From assembly GCF_004359215.1 (NCBI RefSeq), contig NC_090621.1, positions 308,257 to 372,256 on the forward strand: 64,000 bases of DNA. The letters run 5' to 3'. The notes below the pieces were generated by a model. The model had not been told where the DNA came from. It saw only the letters and a list, made by a program, of their open reading frames with translations, and made no database searches. This document shows positions 1 to 60,721 of the stretch, piece by piece. The DNA is from Bremia lactucae (Eukaryota > Oomycota > Peronosporomycetes > Peronosporales > Peronosporaceae). Positions within the stretch are counted from its first letter, which is position 1; every line of letters begins with the position of its first letter. The position numbers and the translations under genes were made by a program.

Positions 1-700
1 AACTAAAGGATCCCTCTAATTGGGTGGGTTTGCGTTGTAGACGCATGCACCGAATTATTGATGGCAAACTCGACCATAGGTAAGAACTCGCTCCGATTCA
101 GATACGATTGGACGTAACCTCGAAGTATATCTTCGAGGACGCAATTACGCGTTCCATCTGACCATCTGTCTCTGAATGATCAGAAGCTGACATAGTCGGC
201 CGTGATCAGATCTCTCGGAGCACGGATTGCCAAAACCCCGCCGTGAACCGTGGATCTCTATCCGAGATTAGTTCACGGGGTAAACCGTGGAGTTTAAATA
301 CCGTGTCGATGAAGACACGGGCACAGCCCGGAGCCGTAATCGACTCTAATACTGCAACAAGATTAACCGTCTTGCTGAATATGTCTACAAAAACAAGGAT
401 TCCTTATATTTTTTATCGTCTGTGGGAAATCCGAAGACAAAGTCCATAGATACGGACTGCAAACATTCTGCCAAAAGTGATAGAGGTTGGACAGGTGCAC
501 GGGATGAAGGGCGAGGCGTCACCCGTTGACATACCTCGCAAGCGCGAATGTACTTGCGCACGAACTGATGCTGGCGAGGCCAGTAAAAGTCGTGACTCTC
601 TGTGAGCCTAGTATTCCCACGTCCACGATGCCCACTTGTTGGTGCATCGTGACATCATACATGATGCGCAAACGCAAGTCATTGTGAGTTCGGACGACGA
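1..700 (-). pseudogene. Gypsy integrase remnant of G1
   Basis: Minus-strand translation of about 1 to 240 gives the C-terminal integrase-core context of gypsy elements: a run reading roughly LEDILRGYVQSYLNRSEF followed by a VEFAINNSVH-type motif that normally lies after the catalytic Glu. Stops and frame changes occur throughout, so no functional integrase is encoded. The stretch from 700 to 1130 holds further untranslatable gypsy sequence. Confidence 0.7.
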
Positions 701-1129
701 CACGTGGAATGTCGCTGGCAACGGCTGTTTAGTGCAGTAAGCCGTTGTGTGTTCTGTATCGATCGGATGACGATCGATTTGAAGCCGTTAAATCTTTAAG
801 ATATTTATTTGATGGATTCATCAGATAATCCATTAAAAGCAGACGGTATTTTTTTCTGTGAAGGCTTTCTTTATGTCATCAAACAAAGTTGATGACGGAA
901 CACTCGTAGTGAGAGCTGCAACAGTGGAATGAATTTCACTGTTGGCGTGCGCAGCCGACTCGAAATCGGGGGTTTACTAGATATATACATGCAAATGGTG
1001 TTTTTTTATAGTCGGCGTGATAACGCATCAGCGACGACATTAAGTCGTTCTGGTTTGTATTCCACAAAAGATTATATTTTGCGAAGAAGGATAGCCACCT
1101 CGCCATTCTTTGCGAGAGGTGTGGGCTGT

Positions 1130-2200
1130 TTACGGCCTGCGTAATGACGCGTGGTTCGTATATAAGATGAACGGTCTATTTCCGAAAAGATAGACCCTAA
1201 ACTTAGCCAGTGCATATTTCATGTCAAGGAATTCTTTGTCATGCACTGGGTAATTGCGTTCAGCTGGTTGCAGCTGACGCGATATGTAACAGACGACGCG
1301 CTCCGCGCTGTCTGTATCGAATTGCACTAACGCATAGCCGATTGCAAAATCGCTGGCGTCACAGACCACACGGAATGGTCTGTCTTGATCTGCAGCTGCC
1401 AAGATGGGCGATTGCTTCAAGCTTGGCTTGATATCTTCAAATGAACGCTGACAATCAGCGTTCCATAACGATTTCTCGTCTTTTTTCAAGAGACAAGAGA
1501 GATGAACTGTTATTTCGGCATAATTGCGTGAGTATTTGTGCAAGTACACCGCTAGCTCAAGTGACTTTCTAGTCCCTTGACATTGGCTGGAATTGGCCAG
1601 TCGGTAATTGCCTCGATATTTTCGGTCTGAGGGCGCACGCCGTGTTTACTAATGATGCACTCAAGAAGTGGTATTTCGGTTGCAGCGAATATAAACTTCT
1701 TGAGATTTGCGTACAACTTATGCTTTCGCATAAGTGGAAGAACTAGACGAACGTGAGCTTTATGGACTTCCACGTCCGTCTTTCTGTCCAGAGCCCGGCT
1801 ATGGACGGTACATCATCAAAGTAACTCGGTGCGAATTTTCGCACCGGACTCAACAGATTCGTTACGCATCTGTTGAATGTTGTATGGGCGTTACTAAGCC
1901 CCTGTGGAATTACTAGCCAATCCCAGAGCATTCCACTGGAAGTGTTCACTGCTGTGTACTGAACGTCCCGGTCACGCATAAGGATCTGATATAATTCATC
2001 CATATCATCAATAGACGAAAAAGATAGTACTCTTAGATATACCATCGATTACGTCTTTTTTAGGTATCGGCATTTGAGCCGGTACCGTTGCAGCATTCAA
2101 TTTATTGATTGGGTGCACTATCTGCAACCCTCCCGTGGCCTTTCGCACACAGAAGATTGGAGAGCTATGTGTGAAGGTTGGCTCCCTTTCATGGGCCCGC
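1130..2200 (-). pseudogene. Gypsy reverse transcriptase and RNase H remnant of G1
   Basis: In minus-strand order: an N-terminal RT piece (about 2200 to 2050) with VHPINKLNAATVPAQ; the palm (2045 to 1743) with SGMLWDWLVIPQGLSNA and the YFDDV form of the YxDD catalytic box; a thumb piece (1773 to 1552) with KHGVRPQTENIEAI; and RNase H (1549 to 1130) with VVCDASDFAIGYAL and a PVHDKEFLDMKYAL motif. Frames change between segments, so at least three indels are needed to join them. The catalytic motifs are readable, which suggests fairly recent inactivation. Confidence 0.85.
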
Positions 2201-2712
2201 GTTTAATCGATCGATAAAGAATTTATCGATCGCAAGTACTTGTTCTTGAGGCAGTGGCCACTACTTCATGACCTAGTACTTCGAGCCCGGTTTGACCTCG
2301 ATCTCATGTCGAGTGCCTATATCTTTAGGCAACTCGCATGGAACTGCTTCAGAAAATACTTTTATGAAGTCCATCAAATCCTTGTATAAAGGATTTGTCT
2401 TAAGTGACTCTCAGGATTGCGTAGTATATCTCAATCCGAGTCTTCACATCGAGGGCAATTTCTTTCATCGATAAGCTGCTGCGAACATGTTCGTTCTCTC
2501 CAAAAATAATCGCTTATCGAATATCGGTTACGTATTTGTCTTCTGTGACGAGTGCACAAATCTGCTTGATTCTAGCGCTATGGAGATCTCTCAAGATCCG
2601 TTTAGGTTCTAGTGTTGGAAGTACGTGGGGACTTATTCCCTCAACGTCCTCCGGCTGTGATTGCGCTATCACAGTCGAGTCCTCTACGGTCGACTCTCTA
2701 CTCGACCCAGCA

Positions 2713-4420
2713 TCATCGTGTTGTCCCTTTTAAGCAACTGGTATATTCCTTTGAATGTCGCCTGCTAGGCGTACACTCATGTCTCAATCCACTCGACTTA
2801 TTCGAGTGGTGGACCTTCGGCGCTGCCTGTGCACTCGCAGCTGACTCCACAGTGTGATTAGCAATCACACTGGGATCTTGTGCGGTTGTACTAACGACCG
2901 TAACACAAGTGAGGCCATCGCACGCACTCGTAGTACATCTACACAGTTGTGGACGCTCCAAGACGTTCATCATATGGCCATCTGATGAACAAGTAGAAGG
3001 CGTCTTTACGGATCGATGCTGCCAGCTAATATTTGGATTATATTTTCTGAGCCAAGGTAAATCTAGGATGACATCAAATTTGTTATCCAAGTCCAGTACA
3101 ATGAAATTATCATCGTACTGTAAATCTTTTAATGTATTTGAAATTTCACTACGCGTTTGTTCACTATTATCGATGCGCCTGTCGCTAGACGCACCGTCAT
3201 CCTCGTTAGAGGGATGTCGCGCTCAACATATTTGAGCCAACGACCCTCAAGCGTCTGGCGACGAATGAAGTTATACGACGCCCCACAGTATACTAAAGCT
3301 CCAAGTGACAAATTATCTGCCACTTTTAACTTCAAGGTGATAAGGGAAACCTCATCGCCAGGTGCAGAGACTCATAATGATTGTGTGTCTGGAGCAACTT
3401 TAGTCAAGAGATTTGCAAACTCTTCTAAGGTTGCTGGATCAGTAGGGCGTTGCACCCCTACTGACCCCGCTCATTTTTTGGCGGTCCGCCTCGCTGTTGC
3501 GATTTCAAAACAACGTCGGACCCGCGACCGTTGCCCTTTCTTGCCTTCGGTCCATAATTACGTTCTGGGTGTGGGGCACTGAACTCATTAGCGTAGTGTC
3601 CTAACTTTTGACAGCGATTGCATTTCTGCAATCGCTTATTGTTTAAAAAGCGAGGTCTCTCGCTTTCGACGTAAGAGAGGTCCATGGGTTCTAGACCTCC
3701 TAGCTCGTGTCGTCTTGGAGGACGATACGATGGCGAACTAGCTTTAGCCTGTCTATGTTCAAGCTTATGCCCAGCACATACGACTTTTAGCGAGTTGTAT
3801 CACAAACAACCCAGTTCATGAACACACGTTGATTGCGGTGTTCATGCAGGAGGACTTTAGCTTGCACGCTTGCCTTGCTTGAGTTTCAGAAGCTCAGATC
3901 GAGCTCTGAACTCAGCCCTAGGTGGTTCAAATGTCTGTTTGAGCCGGGCTTTAAAGCCTTTAGTGACCCAAAGACATATGGGTTGCGCAACTTAAGGTAT
4001 AGTGCTCAAGTTTTGGCACGACCTGCCAAATTTGATTGAGCAAATGCGACTTGCATTTGCTCGTCGACGATATGACGAGTCCTTATGGCATCGTCCACTC
4101 GACAAACCATCTTAAAAGGGAGTTTCTTTTGGCTCCCCTATATCTATCTCTAAGGTTTCGGGATGACGCGTGTGCGTCATCGCACGTACGGTCTGTACCT
4201 ATTGTAACCTCAACAGTTCTGCCTGTTGAGAGTTTTGCTGATTAAGCAAGGCTACCTTCTCCTTCGCCTCGTCAAGTTCATGTTGTAAAAACTTGGCGAT
4301 GGCTGAATGGAGGGCATATCTGTCCAAACTGGACAGCATGGCCAAGATGGCATCATTCTTTGCGGTCGAACTCATTCGTTCGACCGCACTCCTTTCTATG
4401 TCACTTAGAAAGGAGTAGCT
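2713..4420 (-). pseudogene. Gypsy gag and protease remnant of G1
   Basis: At 3685 to 3458 a CCHC-like knuckle reads CNRCQKLGHYANEF, with the fourth ligand changed from Cys to Phe. At 3335 to 3129 an aspartic protease start has YCGASYNFI where gypsy proteases have D-C-G-A-S, so the catalytic Asp is lost. At 3090 to 2713 the flap end reads FDVILDLPWLRKYNP. From 4420 to 3690, downstream of the LTR, no long frame remains but hairpins are dense. The order fits gag then protease. All parts are non-functional. Confidence 0.75.
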
Positions 4421-4517
4421 ATCACGCGGACGTGGTGCACATTTCCATTATCATCGAACATGTCCAGGTTTGATGATAGAAGTGTGGTCTTTGGACGGAC
4501 TACAAAGTGCGACCAGG

Positions 4518-7509
4518 TGTAACCGGGCACTACCGACTTGTGCTGCTTGAGTAGAAGTCCACTTCGCACAGCTTCAGTGCAAGTGGTGCCTCACATACAC
4601 TAGTACATGCAGAGGAAGACTCTTTTTTAAACACTTGCTTTAAAGAGGGTTAAAAGTAAACTGTATTAAATATAATCAATTCTTTTTTTTTCAATCTTTT
4701 TTATACTAACTTAATTATATAATAATACAAAACATGTAATAAAGTCTTATCTGTCTCTCTCTTTGCGCGCGTCCGGCGCTGACTGGACCGCGGAGCTAGT
4801 AAAAATATAATGGCCTTTATCTACCATGGATAAGCCTTTTGAATATTACTACGTAAAGCAATATCCTCCAAATATTTTCTACGTTTTAGAAAATATTTTA
4901 AAAAATATATAATTCCCACCGGAGTTTTTATTATCCCCACCGGAGTTTAGGGGGTTTCTAATTTCTAGAGATTAATGGGCTACATATGTATATAATGTTA
5001 CGGATTTTGTGCTGCTGGCCGAATAGGGCATCTGTGACTGGCCCTGGTATGACCAACTTGAAGGCAACGCCGGCAAGTAGGTTGGGCACGCGTTCTCTCA
5101 CTGGCAGTGACACTGGCAGGCGTATCAGGTTCAACTCTTGCTGCCTCTAAGACCATGGCATGCTCATGAAACCAAAGGTCACGACGCAGCCATGTGGCAC
5201 CAAGCAACCCTGCAGGCCTACCACGACCACGTCGAAGCACAGTTACAAGAACAGTAGCCGCATTACCACTCGTTTCGATTCTGGAGAAGGTCTCATCCAT
5301 TAACCTTTGCAATCGAGGGGGTGCCTGTTGATACTCTGCTGTTATTCGTTCAACTGACTGGTGGAAGGATACTGCATGGCTTGCGGAGGCAACTGACAAG
5401 GTGAGATTTAGTCGGATGGCAGTTTTTGCTGCTGGTTGATCAAGCCACCAGTGCTTGTTGAAGTTTTCCACAGAGAGCGGGGAGGAAGGTGAAATCGATG
5501 CACACAGGGCCATCCCATACTAATATCATCAGTTGCCAACAGCAATCACCATCACAGGTACCAAGTTCAGCTTCATATCGGCGTAATGACTGCTGGTATG
5601 CTGCTTTCAATGCATGACTGGAGATCCAAAGATGCCATAGTTAGAAAAGGACATAGTGAGATCTGGAATACAATGAGAGCATTTCTTTCAACATATTTTT
5701 GGCTCACGTTACCTCATCACATGCTGCCATAATGTCCCGTAGCCTAAAGGGCAAGGCGGCAAGTTTTGTCATTTGCAATTTGCTTCTTTTTCTCATTGAG
5801 CTAAAATATGCAGGCTTTGTCGATTAACTTATGAATGACAAGTAGGTCACCTGTTGAAGACTGCATCTATCTCTTAAGACCGTAGCGTGCACTCTCCACT
5901 CGTTGTGTCGAAGTGTGCCTAAATGATTAATGTATTTAACTATACCCTGACAATTTTTTCATTGTAAGCCAAGCATTGCTGTCGAATGTAATTAAAGGCC
6001 TCTGCAGGGCAAAACCGCGAGAGGGCTTCCACTGCCTCTTGGTACTTTTCTTCCATTGCTGCATTGACGATTTAGTTCGTGCTAGCAGGAGGCTGGAATG
6101 GTACGAGAAAACGAATCTCGCCATTCGACACTGACATTTTGTGTCAAAAAGCAAATGACAACAGCCTTCGAATGCTCCTTCATCGATGAATCAAATGCCA
6201 TCTGTCCTTCACTTCCAGCAGGAAAATGCTTGCGAACATTTACGAGAATATTTTTTCGATATGCCAAATGCATACGATATTTTGCAAGAGGGGAACAGGA
6301 TCCCAAGTCCATACATGAGGGCAAGCTCATGTTCCGTAACAAAGACGAATTATTGCAAGATTGTTTTTTACTACCCAAACTCTAATATTTAAGGAACTGT
6401 ATCAGTAAGAAAGAATATAAAACAATGCAATGAATAAGACCAGGAAAATAGTGCTTACCTCTTGAAACTGTGTCAAGGCACATTCATAGAAAAGAACACA
6501 GTGTATGTTTGGTTGGTTGGGGTTGAGGAGACGCAGTGAAAGAGAGGCATTTTGTGCTTGTTTGTCTTGTATGTTGAATCTATAACAAAGACCTGATATC
6601 CACACCACTGTGCAACTGTTGTGGCTGTGGTGGGCTCTATGCACAAGTGCGTTAAATTATGAGTATCGTCTCCCTTCATTACCCATTTGACCTCGGAGTT
6701 TGCCAAATGGTCAAGCAGTGTTTCCAGGGTTGAGCGGCCTCTAAGTTCCTGTCGCCGCAACAATTGTTTCGCATTGCATAAATCTTGAGCAGTTGCGCAG
6801 CTGCTTTGGTCAGCAAGTTGCAAAGTGCGCACTATGTTGCGAGGTGCAACACCTGCAAGGGTTTGTTGCATAATGAGCTGCATGATCTGGTGGATTGCCT
6901 TGTTCCTCACTCGAGGATATGCTGCTAGATCAGCAGGTTCAAGGTTGTGTCCTGGTTCAATAACTCTCACAGTCCAAGTATTCTTCAACTCATTGACTTA
7001 ACGAATCCCAGCACAGTCCCGTACTAGTTTCACTCTTAAAGGGCAACCTGTTTTTCTAGATTTCTGTGCAGGGCTTGCACCATGTCCCTCCCTACCCCAT
7101 GATGTTTGCAACTAAAAAGAATGCTCTTCATTGGCTGTTCCACACCCTTTCCATACCTCTCTGAGCAAATAGTGCAAATATCGTATTGTTCAGCTTCAGA
7201 GTGAGCTTGAAGAGCTTCTTTTGCTATCACAATTGATCGGTATGTTTATTCAGCTGGAGGAGCAAGATGCATGGTGAAAGCAATTATGATTTGAGGTGAA
7301 GTGACAAACAAGCCACTTCAGGGGCGTGTGAGCCAGCAGCAGCAGCCAATCATGGATTTGAGAAAGTCAGGGAGGTTGCCATATGCATCTACTAAATCTA
7401 CATAAAAATTAGAAAAACCCCAAAACTACGGTGGCTGTGCGAATAACATCTCCCTAAATTAATTAACAACCTTTAAGTGTTAATTTGTAACGACCCCCCC
7501 CCCGTTACA
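4518..7509 (-). repeat. 5' LTR of G1, interrupted by a MULE
   Basis: Read on the minus strand the LTR starts TGTAACGG at 7509, contains an internal TCGTTACA, and resumes beyond the MULE from about 4904 down to a terminal GTTACA at 4518. Without the insert it is about 440 bp. Closely similar LTR sequence is found at 45275-45730 (same orientation) and 57986-60721 (opposite orientation). The C-rich run at about 7494-7503 lies in the LTR's first 20 bp. Confidence 0.75.
4905..7454 (-). mobile_element. Degenerate MULE DNA transposon, left copy
   Basis: Transposase remnants run on the minus strand: a FAR1/WRKY-GCM1-like DNA-binding piece at 7230-7036 (CSERYGKG, CKHHG), a middle piece at 6988-6473 with HNLEPADLAAYP and the MULE motif FVIDSTYKTNKHKMPL (first acidic residue), and a C-terminal piece at 5513-4998 ending in a CCHC knuckle, CRRCLQVGHTRASHRC. 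Stops and frameshifts separate the pieces. Imperfect terminal inverted repeats are visible: the right end at 7454 reads inward GGGAGATGTTATT, then CCACCG and GGGGTTTTTCTAATTT; the left end shows CCCACCGGAG and GGGGGTTTCTAATTTC, but its outermost bases are lost. The element sits inside a gypsy LTR, as does its sister at 58041-60418. Confidence 0.8.
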
Positions 7510-32795: not shown

Positions 32796-34379
32796 AGGCA
32801 TCCCAGCCTTGAGCAGCGAACCGTTTCTTTTTGTCCGTTTCTAGGACGCTCTCGTCCATTGTGGACGACGAGCAACAGTCTACCAAGCTCTCTTCTGAGA
32901 CTGGTGTGACTTTTTTGTGGGTCTTTCCTTTCTCTAATTCATCAAGAAACAGATCCCACGACATCTCCTGGGGATTTACTATCTCCTCGGCAGATTTAAA
33001 AACTTGCCGGGGCACCTCAACTGAGGATGCCACCGCATTTTTGTCTTTCACAGCCTCGTACACCTCGTTCGAAGGCCCGTTATCTTAATCAGGGACTGAT
33101 CCAAAGGTCACTCGCTTAGACCGTGCCTTAGATCGTCCTAATCTGTCGGGTACTCGTCCTTCGAGTCGCCACGACCTTTGACTGGGAAGCGGGTGTCGTT
33201 GCACTCCTGGCTAACACACCCCTTCCAACCGCACCAGGCTCTAGGCACTGTGCTGGTTTATGTGACGCATGATTTTCCTGTCAGCTCACCGCCTACTGCC
33301 ACAGGCTCTCGGCTCTGTGCAGGACATTCGGACGCATGACTACTTGTCATCGTCCTATTCACTACCTCAGTCTCCACGAGCTGGGTAGGAATTGGTGACG
33401 TTTGACATCCCGCCAACGGACCCTCAACTGTGTTCGACACGACATCAGTTGCATAGGCCTCTCGCAGGAGCACATCCTTTCCGGTGTCCTGCGTAGAGTT
33501 CGCAACTGTGCGTGTACGCCAGTCTATCCATGGTTGGTACTTTGCCAACCATGGCATGCCTAGGATGAGGTCATACGGACTCTCCATNAGGCATCCCAGC
33601 CTTGAGCAGCGAACCGTTTCTTTTTGTCCGTTTCTAGGACGCTCTCGTCCATTGTGGACGACGAGCAACAGTCTACCAAGCTCTCTTCTGAGACTGGTGT
33701 GACTTTTTTGTGGGTCTTTCCTTCCTCTAATTCATCAAGAAACAGATCCCACGACATCTCCGGGGGATTTACTATCTCCTCGGCAGATTTAAAAACTTGC
33801 CGGGGCACCTCAACTGAGAATGCCACCGCATTTTTGTCTTTTACAGCCTCGTACACCTCGTTTGAAGGCCCGTCCTCTTAATCAGGGACTGATCCAAAGG
33901 TCACTCGCTTAGACCGTGCCTTTGATCGTCCTAATCTGTCGGATACTCGTCCTTCGAGTCGCCACGACCTTTGACTGGGAAGCGGGTGTCGTTGCACTCC
34001 TGGCTAACACACCCCTTCCAACCGCACCAGGCTCTAGGCACTGTGCTGGTTTATGTGACGCATGATTTTCCTGTCACCTCACCGCCTACTGCCACAGGCT
34101 CTCGGCTCTGTGCACGACATTCGGACGCATGACTACTTGTCATCGTCCTTTTAACTTCCCCAGTCTCCAAGAGCTGGGTAGAATTGGTGACGTTTGACAT
34201 CCCGTCAACGCACCCTGAACTGTGTTCGACACGACATCAGTTACATACGCCTCTCGCAGGAGCACATCCTTTCTGGTGTCCTGCTTAGAGTTCGCAACTG
34301 TACTTGTATGCCAGTCTATCCATGGTTGGAATTTTGTCAACTATGGCATGCCTAGGATGAGGTCATATGAACTCTCCAT
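32796..34379. repeat. About 790-bp direct duplication flanking an N
   Basis: 32796-33587 and 33589-34379 are near-identical, in the same order, and meet at the N. The left copy ends and the right copy begins exactly at the N, the pattern of two overlapping contig ends joined without merging. Scattered substitutions distinguish the copies, so they may be two alleles or two element copies. Confidence 0.85.
33588..33588. other. Assembly gap (single N)
   Basis: One N at the border of the duplicated segment. Gap size is unknown. Confidence 0.9.
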
Positions 34380-42359: not shown

Positions 42360-44340
42360 ACGATGACAAAAATGTAATCGTTGTCAAAAGACGGGCCACT
42401 ATGCCTATGACTGTAGCCAGTGCCTAGAAACAGTGAGCAAAATGATCGACCTCCCGCTAGGAACATTGGAGCCGCGGACCCGACGCTGATGCGAATTCGC
42501 AACAGCGAGGGGGATCAAATAAAGGTCGGGGTCAATAGGGGCGGAGCGCCCAACTGATCTAGCAACGCTTACAAACTTACAGGCCTTTTGACGAAAGTTG
42601 CTCCTTACCCATAACAATTGTATATAATCACCCCAGGTGATGAGGTTGACCTCATCACCTTAAAAAATAGTTGCAAACTAATTGCCACTTAAATCCCTAG
42701 CCGATTGTGGGGCATCGAGCAACTTAATCTGACGCCAGTCGCTACAACATCGTCCACAGAAATTAATCTAGCGTGATCTACCTCTCACGAGGACGACAGT
42801 GCGCTCACAACACGCCAATCTGTAAAAGTAAAGAAACGTAGTTGGTGTCCAGTACACGTTAAAAGGGTAAACAGTACGATGATAACTTCATCGTACTGAA
42901 TTTGAGATAGCAAATTTGATATCATCCTTGGATTACCATGGCTTAAAAAGTACGAGCCATCCAAATTTTGGCACATTTAACCATAACAATGCCTGTCTCT
43001 CGCTCATCAGATAGCTTTCTGGTGAATGTCTTTTAGCGTCCACAAGGGTATAAATGTCCTACGACTAAATGTGATGGCTTCACATGTGGTATGGTCGTTA
43101 GCACGACTGCACAAGACCTTAGCGTGATAACCCATCACATAATGGAAATAGAATTTGGCGGCTGTTCACAAGCGGGGGCAGTGTCAAAGGTCGACCATTC
43201 GAATAGATCGGATGGATTAAAACAAATACACTTGATAAAAAGCAACCTCAAAAGAAGTTTAAAACGCCTATTGCAAGAGACAGTGCAAAAAACGTACATC
43301 GTCAAGAAAAACAATCGTAGAGGATCTCGCTGTAGTTGCACAATTACAACTTGAGTCAGTTGGAGGGATGCCCCTAAAAAATAAGGGAAGCAGTCTCATA
43401 TAACTGATAGGTATGAGTCTCATATGCCTTTGGAAATAAGTTTCAAGGAAAAAAGTGAGATATTGAATGACTTGTAACAAGGATCATAAGTAGGTGCTTC
43501 CACACTTGATCTGATAGCGTATATGCTTGATCTGATAGCGTATACACTTGATCTGATAGCGCCTCCGAAAAAAACTTCAGAGATAACTTTATTCCCATCG
43601 CTACAACCGAAACGGTTCTTGCGTGATCTGCATAGTGGCAAAATCAAGTAGATCCGGGTACTTGACACGTATTACAAGTACGTCGCTGATATTCGGTCAG
43701 CAATAGTATTTCCTGAGAACTAACGGGATCTAAGCAGCTTATTGATGGCCGAAAGTGTCCTCGATGAGAAGACTCGGATGGAACGTTAACGTCTCAATCC
43801 TGAAAATGGTTAAAAACAAATCGTTTGTATAAGTATTGAATGACTTTAAGAATTTGTTTCCTGATTCGGTAGCGTGCGAGTTGCCGATGAATAGAAGCAC
43901 TCGACACGAAACCGACATGATACCTGGTTCGAAATACTGTGTCATGAAACAGTGACCATTGCCTCGTGAACAAGTCAGCGATCGACAAATTCTTTACCGT
44001 TCGCTTAGCAGCGAATCACATGAGGGACTATGCCATAATATTTCTTGTTCGTTAAAGAAAATATAAAAATGCCCGGGAATGCTGATTTTCAGCAGTGCTT
44101 CAAAGGAGACAATATTGAAGCAATCGCCAATCTTGGCAGACCAAGACAGACCATTTCATGTGGTCTCTCTCCTAGCATTCTCGCAATCGGCTGTGCGTTG
44201 ATGCAGTTGATACAGACGGCGCAGAGCGCGTCTTCTACTAACATTCAAGTCAGCTTCAACAAACTAAATGTAAATATCCGTTGCATGCCAAGGACCGCTT
44301 TGCCATCAAATATGCCTGGCTAAGTTTAGGGTGTATCTCA
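42360..44340 (+). pseudogene. Gypsy gag knuckle, protease and RNase H remnant
   Basis: A knuckle, KCNRCQKTGHYAYDC, lies at about 42370-42415; ADCGASSNLI, the protease active-site start, near 42700; KFDIILGLPWLKKYEPS near 42910-42960; RNase H at 44070-44330 (DFQQCFKG, then SPSILAIGCALMQLIQTA). The RT in between is deleted or unreadable. Closely related in sequence to G1, but on the plus strand. Confidence 0.7.
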
Positions 44341-45049
44341 TAGGAGATAGATCTTTTATAGTTTTTGCCGACGTGGATGACGTAAGCCATTCACGAAGAA
44401 CCGTATGATGCATAGCTATCGGACCAATGCCTCCCACCACAAACAGGACTTGGAGCGCGAGGAACATCACGTTTTTAAATCAATTTGTACATATGATTAA
44501 GAACTATAAAAACCTGAACCTTACAAGGGTAAAGGTTTGTTATTACAAAACGAAAATATACTGCAAAAAGAAAGAAAGAAAGAAAAGAAAGGGGAGTCTT
44601 CTTCGACTCCCCTATACTTAGAGATGTCAACCTTAAAGATTGACATCTCTACCATCAGTGCTAAATGGATCTGTGGCAATTCAAGGGCACGTTCAAGCGC
44701 ATGCCGCGAAAATTTAGAAAGAGAAAGGCAGCGAAGGCAATCAATAGCGTAATCAGAGATCTTCTAGTAGGCTCGCGTGAGATCTTTTGCATGCGTCACA
44801 AAATTGTAATAACTTGATCCTTGTCCTGCCACTGACACCAGCCTTGGCAAATTCTGTTGTCATCGTCAACAATGGTGTTAAGAATGGCGAGATGGTTGTA
44901 TTTTATCGCGGCGTACGAGTTCTGTGTGAACATAAGCCGGGTGACTTTGTGCTGTCGCTGATGCAATTTTTGCCGGCCTGATTTTGGACCGGCTGAACTA
45001 AGCAGCAGTGAGGATCAGCCCCGGTCACAGCCGAAGGGTATGATCATTT
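44341..45049. other. Degenerate repeat sequence; short GAAA run
   Basis: No gene recognised. A purine run of GAAA units lies at about 44570-44592, and short inverted repeats such as GACATCT/AGATGTC lie beside it (44623-44650). Confidence 0.4.
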
Positions 45050-45274
45050 CTCTACTAACGATATTTCGACTCCATGGATTATCCGTGAACTGGTTTCGGG
45101 TCGAGATCTTGGTTCACAACGGAATTTTGCAATCTGTGTTCAAATCGCTTAAAACAGTTGGAAATGTCAACTTCTGACCATCTGGAAACAGATGGTCAAA
45201 CACGTACAAATCGTATCTTTAAAAGATATACTTCGCGGATACGTCTACTCGTTTACGAGTTGAGTTAGCTCTTT
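45050..45274 (+). pseudogene. Gypsy integrase fragment
   Basis: Reads KQLEMSTSDHLETDGQTRTN, the integrase core with the usual H-P-x-T-D-G-Q changed to HLETDGQ. The last part is repeated at 46132-46267 after the second N. It abuts the LTR at 45275. Confidence 0.7.
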
Positions 45275-45733
45275 CTGACGGGGCACTGCGACTTGTACTG
45301 TTTCAGTACAAGTCCACTTCACACTGCTTCAGTTGTGAGTGGTGCCTTCGTTAAGTAACGTACACTGTACGTATAGAGGAAGACTTCTCTTAGGCAAGTT
45401 AGCTTAAGAGGGTAAAATGAAAACTGTATTAATATAGTTAAGTGTCTTTGTTAATCTATCTTTGTAAATGTTGTCTTAACTATAAACTAATACTAAACAT
45501 GTAAATGAATTCTTATCTATCTTATCTCGTAACTCTCTTTGATTACTTCTACAGCTGATTAGTCTGCGGAATAAATAGACATAATGGTCTATACCTATTT
45601 ATGGATAAGAATTCAGGAAATTACTATTTAAAGTAATTTCCTCCAAATATTATCTACCTTTTGGATAATATTAATTAACAATCTTTTATTGTTAATTTCA
45701 TGTAACGATACACCCCGTTACATCACCCCTCCC
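45275..45733 (-). repeat. LTR of the G1 family, minus orientation
   Basis: On the minus strand it starts TGTAACGGGG at about 45723 and contains the internal TCGTTACA. A polypurine AAGGGAGGGG lies directly upstream (45724-45733), so this is a 3' LTR of a minus-strand element. It lacks the MULE found in the copies at 4518-7509 and 57986-60721, so it shows the empty site. Confidence 0.72.
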
Positions 45734-46130
45734 TTAAACGACAATCACTCTGAATGTCATTAGGTGGAGTGGTCGCTAAATGACCACTTAATTTTTAAAA
45801 TGATTTTGATTGGTCAGATCCATCATTTTAAATTCCATCGCATGAAGGAACAATTCATGCGGGGTGAGGATAGTGTTGAACCTTCGGCTGCGGTTCGTGC
45901 AGCCGCGGGTGACGCATTGTTATCTCTTGCGGTAGACGTTCCGTCTACCGTAGTGTCTTCCACTCGCACAACACTTGGTGTTGCGAGTGCACGTGGTGAT
46001 TCACCACGTGAGTACGACCCCTCTTTAGAGGTCGATTATGAGTGCGAGTCGGACGAAATGGCCGACTCGGGGAGGATGGAACAGTCGCCTGATACCCGTC
46101 AGGCGGCTGATTATGAGCCTTCGAATGAGA
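45734..46130 (-). repeat. Dense hairpin array next to a 3' LTR
   Basis: Ten short inverted repeats in about 340 bp: 45768-45788, 45796-45830, 45839-45861, 45885-45905, 45930-45950, 45961-45989, 45990-46010, 46015-46034, 46045-46069 and 46086-46105. Stems are mostly 7 to 9 bp with loops of about 3 to 9 nt. A plus-strand frame runs through them (45764 to the N, about 120 residues), with no recognised similarity. It lies upstream of the polypurine tract, so it is the 3' internal end of a minus-strand gypsy element cut off by the N. Confidence 0.7.
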
Positions 46131-46131
46131 N
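46131..46131. other. Assembly gap (single N)
   Basis: The 136 bp after the N (46132-46267) repeat 45145-45281 and then diverge. The join is therefore between two repeat copies and may be false. Confidence 0.85.
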
Positions 46132-46499
46132 ATCGCTTAAAACAGTTGGAAATGTCAACTTCTGACCATCTGGAAACAGATGGTCAAACACGTACAAATC
46201 GTATCTTTAAAAGATATACTTCGCGGATACGTCTACTCGTTTACGAGTTGAGTTAGCTCTTTCTGACGGCAGCATCCGCCATCAAGAATTCAATGCATGC
46301 ATAAATAGCATGCACCGTTTCTCGTGAGCGGCTGACTCCATATACATTAACCGACATTCTTTGAGAGAGACTCTTATTCAAAGGGTCGCTCGAGCAAAGA
46401 TTAATCGACCTCTTGCTCATCACACATTGCCTTCGACACTTAATGCGAAGGATGTAACGTAGCTTCATCAGCACGTTTTTTAACAGGCAGAATTGTCGA

Positions 46500-57192: not shown

Positions 57193-57985
57193 TGTAACGG
57201 GTACCTTTCTGTAGCGGAGCTACCTCGCTCCTAAAGTCAGACGAAGACTTTCAGACTCAGAGAGTCACTTAGTTCTATTGAACTCATGGGTTTAACAACT
57301 CAGGGAGTCGTACAAGCGATTAAAGCTTAAGGAATATTAGTTCAAGGGATTCAGGGGTTCGTGGAACGAAGTGGCAACTAGTGCCCAAGAGGATATACCT
57401 TAGAAAGGCTTCTATCTCCTACAGATCAATGCACAAGTCTTAGGAAGGCACTTAACGCTATACGATGAAAAGGGGAAGTGAACTTTATTTAATTATTTAA
57501 ATCTAAAAAAACTTACCCTAACTAATTAAAAAAAAAATGATTTTGGCCGCCAGATTTATATCTGGCGGCGACCACATTTATTACCCATAATGAATGGGAT
57601 TTAGTAACTAACTATTTTAAAATTAGACAAAAGGTACTTTACCCATAGAGTAAATCTACCACAGCAACGGTTCTCCAACCGATGTGTGTCCCATTACACT
57701 TTCACTAGTACTGATAAGTACTAATTAACCTTATACGGGAAGTTTCGAGGTGCCTCGAAACTTCCCGTATACAAGACTATAGAGGCAGGTTTCTATAAAG
57801 CTAAGGGTATTTAGCTTAAAGGTCTAGACTTTTTAAAATTGAGAAAAAGTAAAACTGTATTTATGTATTTAGTTTCCTACGTAACGATCTTCTGTCAACT
57901 AGTGAACTTATTATATTAATATCTAATTAAGTATGGCTCCTCCTTGCGCACCGCACAGTCGTGTCTTGTAACGATTCGCGGGGCT
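57193..57985 (+). repeat. Solo LTR-like sequence with strong hairpins
   Basis: Begins TGTAACGGG, as the gypsy LTRs here do, has no coding capacity, and runs to the next TGTAACGGG at 57986. It contains a perfect hairpin with 19-bp arms and a 2-nt spacer (57732-57771) and another, CCGCCAGAT/ATCTGGCGG (about 57548-57569). The body does not resemble the G1 LTR, so it is probably a solo LTR of another family. The right boundary is uncertain. Confidence 0.5.
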
Positions 57986-60721
57986 TGTAACGGGACGTAT
58001 CGCTACATAAACCAACACTTAAAGGTTGTTCATTAATATTGGGAGATATTATTCGGACCGGAGTTTTTATTATCCCCACCGGAGCTTAGGGATTTTTCTA
58101 ATTTCTATTTAGATTTAGCAGATGCATAGGGCAAACCCCCGTGATTTTTTAAATCCTTGATTAGCTGGCTCTCACGCCCCTGAAGTAGCTTGTTTAACAC
58201 TTCACCCTATTGCGATAGCAAAAAAAGCTCTTCAAGTCACTCTGAAGCTGAACAATGCGTTATTTGCACTATTCGCTCAAAAAGGTATGGAAAGGGTGCG
58301 GAACAGCCAATGAAGAGCATTCTTTTTGGTTGCAAACATCGTGGGGTCTACAAGTATAAGGGACATGGTGCAAGGCCTGCACAGATATCAAGGAAAACCG
58401 GTCGCCCTTTTAGAGTGAAACTAGTACGGGACTGTGCTGGGATTCGTCAAGTCAATGAGTTGATAAATACTTGGACTGTGAGAGTTGTTGAGCCAAGACA
58501 CAACCATGAACCTGCTGATGCAGCATATCCTCGAGTGAGGATCAAGGCAATCTACCCAAACATGCCGCTCATTATGCAACAAACCCTTGCAGGTATTGCA
58601 CCTCGCAACATTTTGCGCACTGTGCAACTTGCTGACCAAAGCAGCTGTACAAATGCTCAAGATTTATACAATGCAAATCAATTGTTCCGGCGACAGTACT
58701 TGAAGGCCGCTCACCACTGGAAATACTGCTTGATTATTTGGCAAACTCCGAGGTCAAATGGTTAATAAAGCGAGACGATAATCAAATTTTAACGTGGTGT
58801 GGAAATCAGGTATTTGTAATGGATTCAACATACAAGACAAACAAGCACAAAATGCCTCTCTCTTACTGCGTCTCCTCAACTCCCACCAACCAAACATACA
58901 CTGTGTTCTTTTGCTTCCTTCCGGCGGAAACTAGAAAGCACTATGAATAGGCCTTGGTACAATTTCAAGAGGTAAGCAGCATTTTCCTTGTCTTATACCT
59001 TGCAGTGTTCTGTATCTTTCTAACTGATGCAGTTCCTTACATATTAGAGTTTGGGTAGTGAAAACATACTTTGCAGCAATCTCGTCTTTGTTACGGACCG
59101 TGAGCTTCCCCTCATGAATGGACTTGCAATCCTGCTCTCCTCTTGCAATGCTTTTGGTATATCGAAATAAATATTCTCGGAAATGTTCGCAAGCATTTTC
59201 CTGCTAGAAGTGAAGAATAGATGGCACTTGATTCATTGATGAAGGAGCATTGGAAGAATGTTGTCAATGCAGCAACAGAAGGAAGGTACCAAGAGGCAGT
59301 GCAATTCTGTCGCAGTTTTGCCCTGCAGAGGCCTTCAATTATATTCAACAGCAATGGTTGCCTTTCAAAGAAATTTCAGGGCATGGTTAAAAAACATTAG
59401 TCATTTTGGGCACACTTCGACACAACGAGTGGAGATTGCAAACTACGGTCTTAAGAGATGGATGCAGTCTTTATTAGGTGACCTACTTGTCAATCGTAAG
59501 AAAATCGATCAAGCCTGCCTATTTTAAGCTCAACGAGATAAAGAAGCAAATTGCAAATGACAAAACAGGCCGCCTTGCCCCTTTAGACGACGGGATATTA
59601 TGGCAGCATGTGATGAAGAAAAGTGAGCCAAAAATATGTCGAAAATATGCTCTCGTTGTATTGGAGATCTCACTATGTCCCTTTCTAACTATGACGTCTT
59701 TGGATCTCCAGTCATGCATTGAAAGCAGCACACCAGCAGTCATTACGCCGATATGAAGCTGAACTTGGTACATGTGATGGTGACAACTGATGATATGTAG
59801 TATGGAATGGCCTTGTGTGCATCGATTCCTCCTTCCTGCCCCGCTCTCTGTGGAAAACTTCAACAAGCACTGGTGGCTTGATCAACCAGCAGCAAAAACT
59901 GCCATCCGACTAAATCTCACCTTGTCAGTTGCCTCCACAAGCCATGCAGTATCCTTCCACCAGTCAGTTGAGCGAATAACAGCAGAGTATAAACAGACAC
60001 CCCTTCGATTGCAAAGGTTAATGGATGAGACCTTCTCCAGAATCGAGGCGAGTGGTAATGCGGCTTCTGTTCTTGAACCTGCGCTTCGACGTGGTCGTGG
60101 TAGGCCGGCAGAGTCGCTTGGTACCACAGGGCTGCGTCGTGACTTTTCGTTTCATGAGCATGCCATGTTTTTTAGAGGCAGCAAGAGTTGAACCTGGTAC
60201 CCCATCAGTATCACTGCCAGTGAGAGAACGCGTGCCCAACCTACTTGCCGGCATTCCCTTGAAGTTGGTCATTCCAGGGCCAGTCGCAGATGCCCCCTTC
60301 GGCCAGCAGCACAAAACCCGTTACATTTTTTACATATGTAGCCTATTAATCTCTAAAAATGAGAAAAAAAACTAAACCCCGGTGGGGACAATAAAACCTT
60401 CGGTGGGATAACATCTCCCTTAATATATTATCTAAAAGGTAAAGAATATTTGGAGAATATTACTTTACGTAGTAATATTCAAAAAGCTTATCCATTGGTA
60501 GATAGATATAGGTCATTATATCTACTTGCTCCGCGGTCCAGTCAGTGTTGGACGCGCGCAAAGAGATAGACAAATAAGACTTTATTACATGTTTTGTGTT
60601 AGTTTATAATTAATTTAGTACAAGAAAATTTAAGTACAATTTGCTTTTAACCCTCTTTAAAGCAAGTGTTTTAAAGAGAGTCTTCCTATGCACGTACTAG
60701 TGTACGTGAAGTGACGTGACT
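57986..60721 (+). repeat. G1-family LTR, plus orientation, interrupted by MULE and cut by copia
   Basis: Starts TGTAACGGGACG at 57986, followed by AACACTTAAAGGTTG as in G1; resumes after the MULE at 60419 and matches the reverse complement of 4600-4904 up to about 60715. It then stops at the start of the copia element (60722), so the end of the LTR is displaced. Confidence 0.75.
58041..60418 (+). mobile_element. Degenerate MULE DNA transposon, right copy
   Basis: Terminal inverted repeats: GGGAGATATTATTCGGACCG at 58041 and, reading inward from 60418, GGGAGATGTTATCCCACCG, then shared GTTTTTATT/GTTTTATT, CCCCACCGG and TTTCTAATTT-like blocks, about 75 bp in all. Flanks ATTAATATT (58032) and TTAATATA (60419) may be a decayed 8 to 9-bp target duplication, as usual for MULEs. 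Transposase pieces: 58190-58765 (YGKGAEQPMKSILFGCKHRG, HNHEPADAAYP), 58738-58950 (FVMDSTYKTNKHKMPL), VTDRELPLMNGLA near 59095, and 59790-60340 (C-terminal domain). Stops and shifts break it. Confidence 0.83.

Follow-up and report, generated by a model that had tools for sequence, protein, structure and literature searches.

What fills a decayed retrotransposon, its coding parts included, with short perfect hairpins? The question is raised by a 64,000-nt stretch of the Bremia lactucae genome (assembly GCF_004359215.1, contig NC_090621.1, positions 308,257 to 372,256; hereafter the window, whose own coordinates are used throughout), in which positions 620–4420 are a decayed Ty3/gypsy copy, with sense on the minus strand, of a large B. 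lactucae family. A first-pass annotation had drawn attention to these hairpins. The excess that it reported is real, and it had missed that the hairpins are ancestral, family-wide and concentrated in one gypsy clade. We propose, tentatively and as the leading explanation, that template switching together with constraint on the encoded proteins made them.

Hairpin excess in a gypsy element

We scored as a hairpin any perfect inverted repeat with a stem of at least 8 bp and a loop of at most 12 nt. The scan found 23 hairpins in 620–4420, where at least 22 had been claimed, and 64 in the full window. All 20 hairpins that had been listed individually are present, two of them 1 bp longer at each end (1850–1876 and 4361–4388), and the full scan adds 624–651, 1361–1383 and 2965–2990. 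The longest stems, of 11 bp, lie at 2208–2232 (loop 3), 4361–4388 (loop 6) and 4388–4416 (loop 7), and stems of 10 bp at 2850–2872 (loop 3), 3613–3636 (loop 4) and 4038–4062 (loop 5). Stems of 9 bp are found at 1443–1463 (loop 3), 1827–1846 (loop 2), 1850–1876 (loop 9), 2375–2397 (loop 5), 3439–3464 (loop 8) and 3817–3846 (loop 12), the last of these within an inverted block at 3755–3848. The remaining stems, of 8 bp, are at 624–651 (loop 12), 758–778 (loop 5), 875–896 (loop 6), 919–944 (loop 10), 1361–1383 (loop 7, in RNase H), 1716–1735 (loop 4), 2789–2809 (loop 5), 2965–2990 (loop 10), 3647–3666 (loop 4), 4162–4181 (loop 4) and 4209–4230 (loop 6). As the first-pass annotation had stated, the hairpins span coding DNA and DNA close to the long terminal repeat (LTR) alike.

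Dinucleotide shuffles of 620–4420 (n = 300) gave a mean of 0.66 hairpins (standard deviation 0.81, maximum 4), in agreement with the roughly 0.6 that had been estimated. For stems of at least 9 bp the element has 12 and the shuffles 0.05, and for stems of at least 10 bp 6 and 0.05 (20 shuffles each). The excess is one of short loops, as raising the loop limit to 30 adds just 3 hairpins. It persists when codons are preserved: the RNase H open reading frame (ORF) holds 2 hairpins versus 0.09 expected, and the reverse transcriptase (RT) ORF 2 versus 0.10. In nine further ORFs of the window, which total 19.6 kb and include a transposase-like one, 2 hairpins were counted versus a summed expectation of about 3.5. 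Similar numbers after shuffling, or an equal density in neighbouring genes, had been named beforehand as speaking against the excess; neither was found. A second hairpin cluster, at 44.1–46.2 kb, falls within a young element and gypsy sequence related to that of 620–4420. Outside the gypsy elements the window also has a 19-bp perfect palindrome with a 2-base loop (57732–57771).

Chance or composition is ruled out as the source of the hairpins by the dinucleotide and codon shuffles. Insertion of a repeated hairpin unit is likewise ruled out, because stem sequences vary from hairpin to hairpin, and those RNase H stems that were examined encode canonical residues without insertions or deletions.

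Age and distribution of the hairpins

We aligned 30 RT–RNase H copies, namely the window's own and 29 at 85.6–87.8% identity, the best of 40 scored matches. Hairpins stand at recurring positions in these copies, 3 to 10 in each per roughly 970 bases, and the active element therefore carried them. Across 975 alignment columns there are 21 stems of at least 7 pairs in which every pair is Watson–Crick in at least 55% of copies; 17 of these have loops of up to 16. Nine copies of the 5′ end (1.05–1.37 kb) carry 6 to 17 hairpins each, and a 28-base motif of the RNase H hairpin at 1361–1383 occurs at 1,834 genomic places with no more than 3 mismatches, compared with 0 for the reversed control.

Hairpins are also dense in a young element, a piece of which (45278–46130) packs 9 with stems of at least 8 bp into about 850 bp; four of these abut at 45615–45723. 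The 40 best genomic places matching 45144–46269, the window's own included, are 99–100% identical, and nine weaker partial matches are 80–99% identical. The first 245 bp of this element are 75% similar to the LTR-proximal DNA of the window copy, and the element is therefore probably also a gypsy. Exactly 138 bp are duplicated at 45144–45281 and 46132–46269, flanking an N at 46131, which looks like an assembly join at the young element rather than a biological repeat.

Beyond the immediate family, eight sister copies 72–80% identical to the window copy hold 2 to 8 hairpins per 1.6 kb, and a more remote clade (the L031 group and L066) holds 2.0–3.6 per kb, with 1.2 per kb in L057; density among family copies ranges from 1.2 to 7.5 per kb. 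Another gypsy family, represented by L062 and L067, has 0 and 1 hairpin in 2 kb; because the two are nearly one family in the tree, we counted them as one control. Five copia loci have 1 hairpin in 17.0 kb (N excluded). In an RNase H tree, some pieces of which are partial, nine hairpin-rich rows fall on one side of a 99/99-supported branch, a side that also holds one protein each from Peronospora effusa and Bremia. The tiling is thus concentrated in one gypsy clade. L031 and L066, close relatives with 5 hairpins in common, have perfect hairpins above chance (7 versus 0.77 and 4 versus 0.51), none of them at positions shared with L061 (chance expectation 0.4). An alignment of young RNase H–integrase copies proved inconsistent, with a mean distance of 0.158, and we set it aside. 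Searches of viral contigs and genome contigs found no DNA of relatives outside this genome, and a plasmid search gave two remote protein matches.

Traces of template switching

If template switching made the hairpins, a copied strand, while single-stranded, would fold into a local hairpin and its growing end would copy its own arm. Mismatched arms would become matched, loops would sometimes be flipped and arms sometimes lengthened, and purifying selection on the proteins would filter the outcomes. The product would be an active ancestor tiled, nearly without overlap, with short perfect hairpins in gag, RT, RNase H and LTR-proximal DNA. The polymerase would be the element's RT or one of the host. 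The copies directly display stems that are mostly strictly Watson–Crick, as well as paired changes; many of them have an inverted loop at one particular hairpin, and a few arms are lengthened.

The inversions affect an RNase H hairpin at RT–RNase H positions 684–716, which corresponds to 1385–1417 (minus strand) of the window, where the window copy has lost the perfect stem. In copy L021 the six-base loop of this hairpin is exactly inverted and the arms are intact. The inverted-loop form with its outer flanks (no more than 2 mismatches) occurs at 43 genomic places, at 38 of which, judged by eye, the loop exactly inverts one that normal copies carry (35 CATCTT, 2 CATATT and 1 CATTTT); among the other five, three read AACATG, for which no counterpart was seen, and two are unclear. 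The intact hairpin core is present in either orientation at 513 places and is inverted at 27 of them (about 5%, counted by hand). Arms are longer in some copies: L109 combines the inverted loop with 14-bp arms, L110 and L118 have 13-bp arms and a rearranged left flank, and L025 has a perfect 36-bp stem around a 5-base loop.

With the 684–716 site left out, we built a tree of 72 copies; of the 28 inverted-loop copies fetched, L099, L103, L104 and L117 were excluded, their aligned spans being too short. The 25 inverted copies require 18 changes on this tree (bootstrap range 17–20), nearly as many as the 20.9 for shuffled labels, and 35 of 500 label shuffles were as low as the observed value. The tree is poorly supported, and its well-supported branches force just one change of loop state; recombination between copies could have scattered that state. 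The inversion turns P-I-L into P-R-W, and since P and L are invariant in a 12-protein alignment, the inverted copies are probably dead ends; many of the flips are probably independent.

The first-pass annotation had listed template switching among several possible causes, and inverted loops and longer arms are direct traces of it. That it also made the ancestral hairpins, as the source of the whole set, is something we infer because it fits the near-perfect complementarity on both strands, the short loops and the occurrence in coding and LTR-proximal DNA alike.

Changes in the stems

Among 6,765 stem cells, 613 show a one-sided change; both sides have changed in 29 to give a Watson–Crick pair and in 13 to give a non-pairing combination. 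Paired substitutions, which the first-pass annotation had suggested looking for, therefore exist. Hairpins are retained in sister families as well, and some changes there are paired; sister copy L072, for example, keeps the stem at 1443–1463 through a paired change of C–G to T–A, and several sisters carry, at 2208–2232, one exchange of C–G for T–A together with an A·C mismatch. Stem variants common to at least three copies comprise 18 A·C, 10 G·T, 2 other and 3 both-sided Watson–Crick changes, such that 28 of the 30 that are not Watson–Crick are transitions. Private stem variants comprise 84 A·C, 77 G·T, 166 other and 11 both-sided Watson–Crick changes.

Because a selected sense RNA should tolerate G·U pairs, the balance of G·T and A·C is informative. 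G·T is found 13 times and A·C 19 times at stem edges, 20 and 46 times in collapsed one-mismatch helices over three sets (2 and 1 in the remote clade), and 5 and 10 times in family differences (0 and 4 from the sister side). Over six tallies, G·T lies below A·C in four and above it in two. These tallies are small and conflicting and are therefore evidence only for the lack of a strong sense-strand G·U preference. The lean towards A·C may in part be mutation bias, because shared variants outside the stems lean likewise (76 to 50).

This outside lean is itself a feature of the family: on the sense strand, shared variants outside stems favour G>A and T>C over C>T and A>G by 76 to 50, and private ones show no such lean (251 to 273). 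It possibly reflects damage to single-stranded minus-strand complementary DNA (cDNA).

Stem columns vary less than others, at 0.051 versus 0.063, and at 0.083 versus 0.112 between families. Codon registers gave no clear synonymous-site preference, with 19 of 65 in the 3-3 register, compared with 34% expected, when eight frames were pooled; a bias apparent in L061 alone disappeared on pooling and was dropped. Stems do not overlap in the window copy, and overlap three times in all across six single copies.

Folding energy

We measured the excess of folding energy over codon shuffles (MFED), with 1–3 windows of 350 bases for each frame of the hairpin-rich clade. In five open frames of this clade, from gag and RT–RNase H parts, MFED is 29–59% in sense and 30–54% in antisense, and the antisense strand thus folds about as strongly as the sense strand. 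Seven control frames lie between −5.3 and 4.5%: L062 at 2.8%, two copia frames at 1.0 and 4.5% (antisense 4.7 and 8.1%) and four host genes at −5.3 to 4.3%. The remote L031 and L066 give 0.1 and −2.2% in sense and 6.8 and 5.4% in antisense. For ten hairpin-rich stretches of 500 bases, z-scores run from −4.7 to −18.9 on one strand, which is the sense strand where this is known, and from −4.3 to −15.1 on the opposite strand; they are −1.5 and −1.3 in sense and −5.0 and −3.0 in antisense for pieces of L031 and L066, −0.9 to 1.3 over both strands for three host pieces, and −3.7 to −1.4 for two L062 pieces.

The sampled gag and RT–RNase H parts therefore have folding energies well beyond those of codon-preserving controls, which is one of the marks of genome-scale ordered RNA structure. 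In a survey of viruses, the genome-mean MFED is given as 15% for SARS-CoV-2 and 23.4% is termed the highest recorded, with single viral regions reaching 35.8% and more than 50% (PMC7642675). Because few windows and a different shuffling were used here, the folding of the Bremia clade is to be read as matching the most structured viral regions covered there, and not as proof of more. L031 and L066, which combine perfect stems with ordinary folding energy, fit an origin by switching.

Weighing the explanations

Template switching filtered by protein constraint remains the explanation that we place first, though at slightly less than even odds. It has a counterpart in yeast coding genes, in which arm homogenization and spacer inversion have been attributed to template switching (PMC8604942). 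The likeness extends, as far as that account goes, to recurrent and parallel homogenization of arms and inversion of loops in coding sequence with short spacers; unlike the yeast cases, which are scattered over single genes, the Bremia case concerns a family of elements in which each kb holds many stems, and multi-base arm conversions between its copies are few. A bolder form, a palindrome drive in which a habit of arm-to-arm switching, and not selection, rewrote the gag–pol of one clade into perfect hairpins within the limits set by the proteins, is conceivable, and we think it rather improbable.

Several observations weigh against an origin by switching. Conserved stems have no overlaps in four sets, in which 5.3 (for the 17 RT–RNase H stems), 0.5, 2.4 and 2.5 would be expected, which suits a joint fold. 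Some paired changes passed through one-sided intermediates (L061, at the 2208–2232 hairpin), and changes show no arm preference (15 left, 12 right). Two tallies run towards G·T: 11 versus 6 A·C in gag copies, and, over 100 places of the 1443–1463 hairpin (39 of them imperfect), 28 versus 13 cells, or 4 versus 2 among variants found in at least three places. In sister family L070, a young frame of 606 nt has no hairpin at all. Private substitutions are no likelier to create a hairpin than random ones of matched spectrum (24 versus 24.1 of 1,280), and in clusters of at least 3 changes (n = 1,124) reverse-complement copying explains 6, compared with 4 reversed controls; for clusters of at least 2 changes it explains 41 of 2,747 versus 7 controls, a count inflated by existing hairpins. 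Among conserved-stem loops of 4–40 bases, inversion was found in 1 of 708 cells, the L021 case at 684–716. Finally, inverted copies are more diverged than normal ones (median 0.066 versus 0.039, the sample of normal copies leaning towards near relatives of the window copy), which hints at switching in resident DNA rather than during reverse transcription.

The rival that survives best is selection for a densely folded genome, a cause that the first-pass annotation had also raised. Here short stems in RNA or single-stranded cDNA would benefit the element and shape its codon choice; the benefit could be shielding from RNA silencing or nucleases, or packaging, as in the genome-scale ordered RNA structure of RNA viruses. 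The MFED of the five clade frames, the non-overlapping stems, the lower variability of stem columns, the excess of both-sided Watson–Crick over non-pairing changes (29 to 13 cells), the preponderance of transitions among shared stem variants and the two tallies in which G·T exceeds A·C all suit it. It is weakened by the inconsistent preference for G·U and by the antisense strand folding about like the sense strand; nor do the codon registers show a clear synonymous-site preference, and the loop inversions are left unexplained. The comparison with viruses cuts both ways. As described for ordered viral RNA, consecutive stem-loops run throughout coding sequence, the folding excess over shuffles is large and paired sites are less variable. 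Unlike it, the Bremia case is an LTR retrotransposon with local perfect stems and short loops, folds about equally in antisense and has loop inversions; and hairpin positions are partly kept between its sister families, whereas related coronaviruses are described as sharing few pairings. We regard folding selection as a realistic possibility, although on balance a doubtful one.

A less probable view, and in our judgement an unlikely one, is that the loop inversions are library or assembly artefacts, which would leave only the old hairpins to be explained. Amplification can switch template at hairpins, and the window itself holds the repeat-flanked N join at 46131. The assembly also began from Moleculo reads and was gap-filled, according to the genome paper (PMC6570648). 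Inverted copies, however, differ from one another in their flanks and in divergence, and some have lengthened arms.

That the hairpins feed or mimic small-RNA pathways, a further cause raised earlier, is very unlikely, given that the stems differ from each other in sequence. To our knowledge, the usual stems of 8–12 bp look too short compared with known Dicer substrates. Least credible of all is a general feature of genome DNA or composition: hairpins outside the element are somewhat commoner than in shuffles (1.8 per 3.8 kb in 6–44 kb), but the nine other ORFs hold about as many as chance predicts and the copia loci and the L062/L067 family are nearly free of hairpins, so a genome-wide property is rejected for the sampled host ORFs, the copia loci and that one other gypsy family.

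The element and its surroundings

The assignment of 620–4420 to Ty3/gypsy rests on a gypsy-type RNase H and an RT that share one direction of transcription, and on further copies throughout the genome. All profile matches are on the minus strand. The RNase H piece (1130–1549, open over 139 codons) matches PF17919 (1.5e-31) and PF17917 (1.1e-24), and the RT piece (1743–2045, open over 100 codons) matches PF00078 at 3.9e-06 and 27.2 bits, below the curated cut-off of 29.6. Homologous copies show a capsid-like gag frame that, judged from its letters, ends in a zinc-knuckle-like part. The closest named protein match of the RNase H is from P. effusa (79% identity), with Phytophthora next, and the RNase H of the window copy belongs to the same clade as those of oomycete Ty3/gypsy elements from Bremia, Phytophthora and Peronospora relatives. 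Self-comparison of the 64-kb window found no LTR pair around the copy; many matches to it make a 5′ boundary visible near 4901. Of 9 fetched copies, 8 match a 94-bp block (3755–3848) in reverse and have, beside it, about 100 bp that are missing from the window copy; one of the eight, L080, is also collinear with the window over the block. A second related and degraded gypsy copy, of a sister lineage, lies on the plus strand at 42473–44351 and is about 71–78% identical in pieces. According to the Bremia genome paper, gypsy elements make up 53.3 Mb and gaps 24 Mb, and most annotated repeats are recently diverged LTR elements (PMC6570648).

Two MULE-like units in inverted orientation, about 80–93% identical in pieces, occupy 4591–7434 and 58014–60709; an ORF of the first (6473–6988) has a weak match to MULE transposase, slightly under the cut-off. 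At five other places, one of them 59.7–60.7 kb of the same window, the MULE-like part is fused to the gypsy 5′ part across about 4901 (4400–5600), as though both parts had been transposed together as a unit. Two neighbouring copies of about 790 bp, 96% identical, lie at 32796–34379.

Implications

Among the literature listings searched, none showed an earlier report of hairpin tiling. If switching made the hairpins, a bias in copying can reshape whole protein-coding sequences, and a family with the motif at 1,834 places would document a great number of such trials in nature. If instead they arose by selection, this would be a cellular retroelement whose sampled coding parts fold as strongly as the most structured viral parts covered by the survey (PMC7642675), and the transposon RNA of oomycetes would seem to be under some pressure, of which RNA silencing is an example. 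For pairs of related species each reading predicts a different pattern, and the question of how these coding sequences came to be tiled is therefore directly testable.

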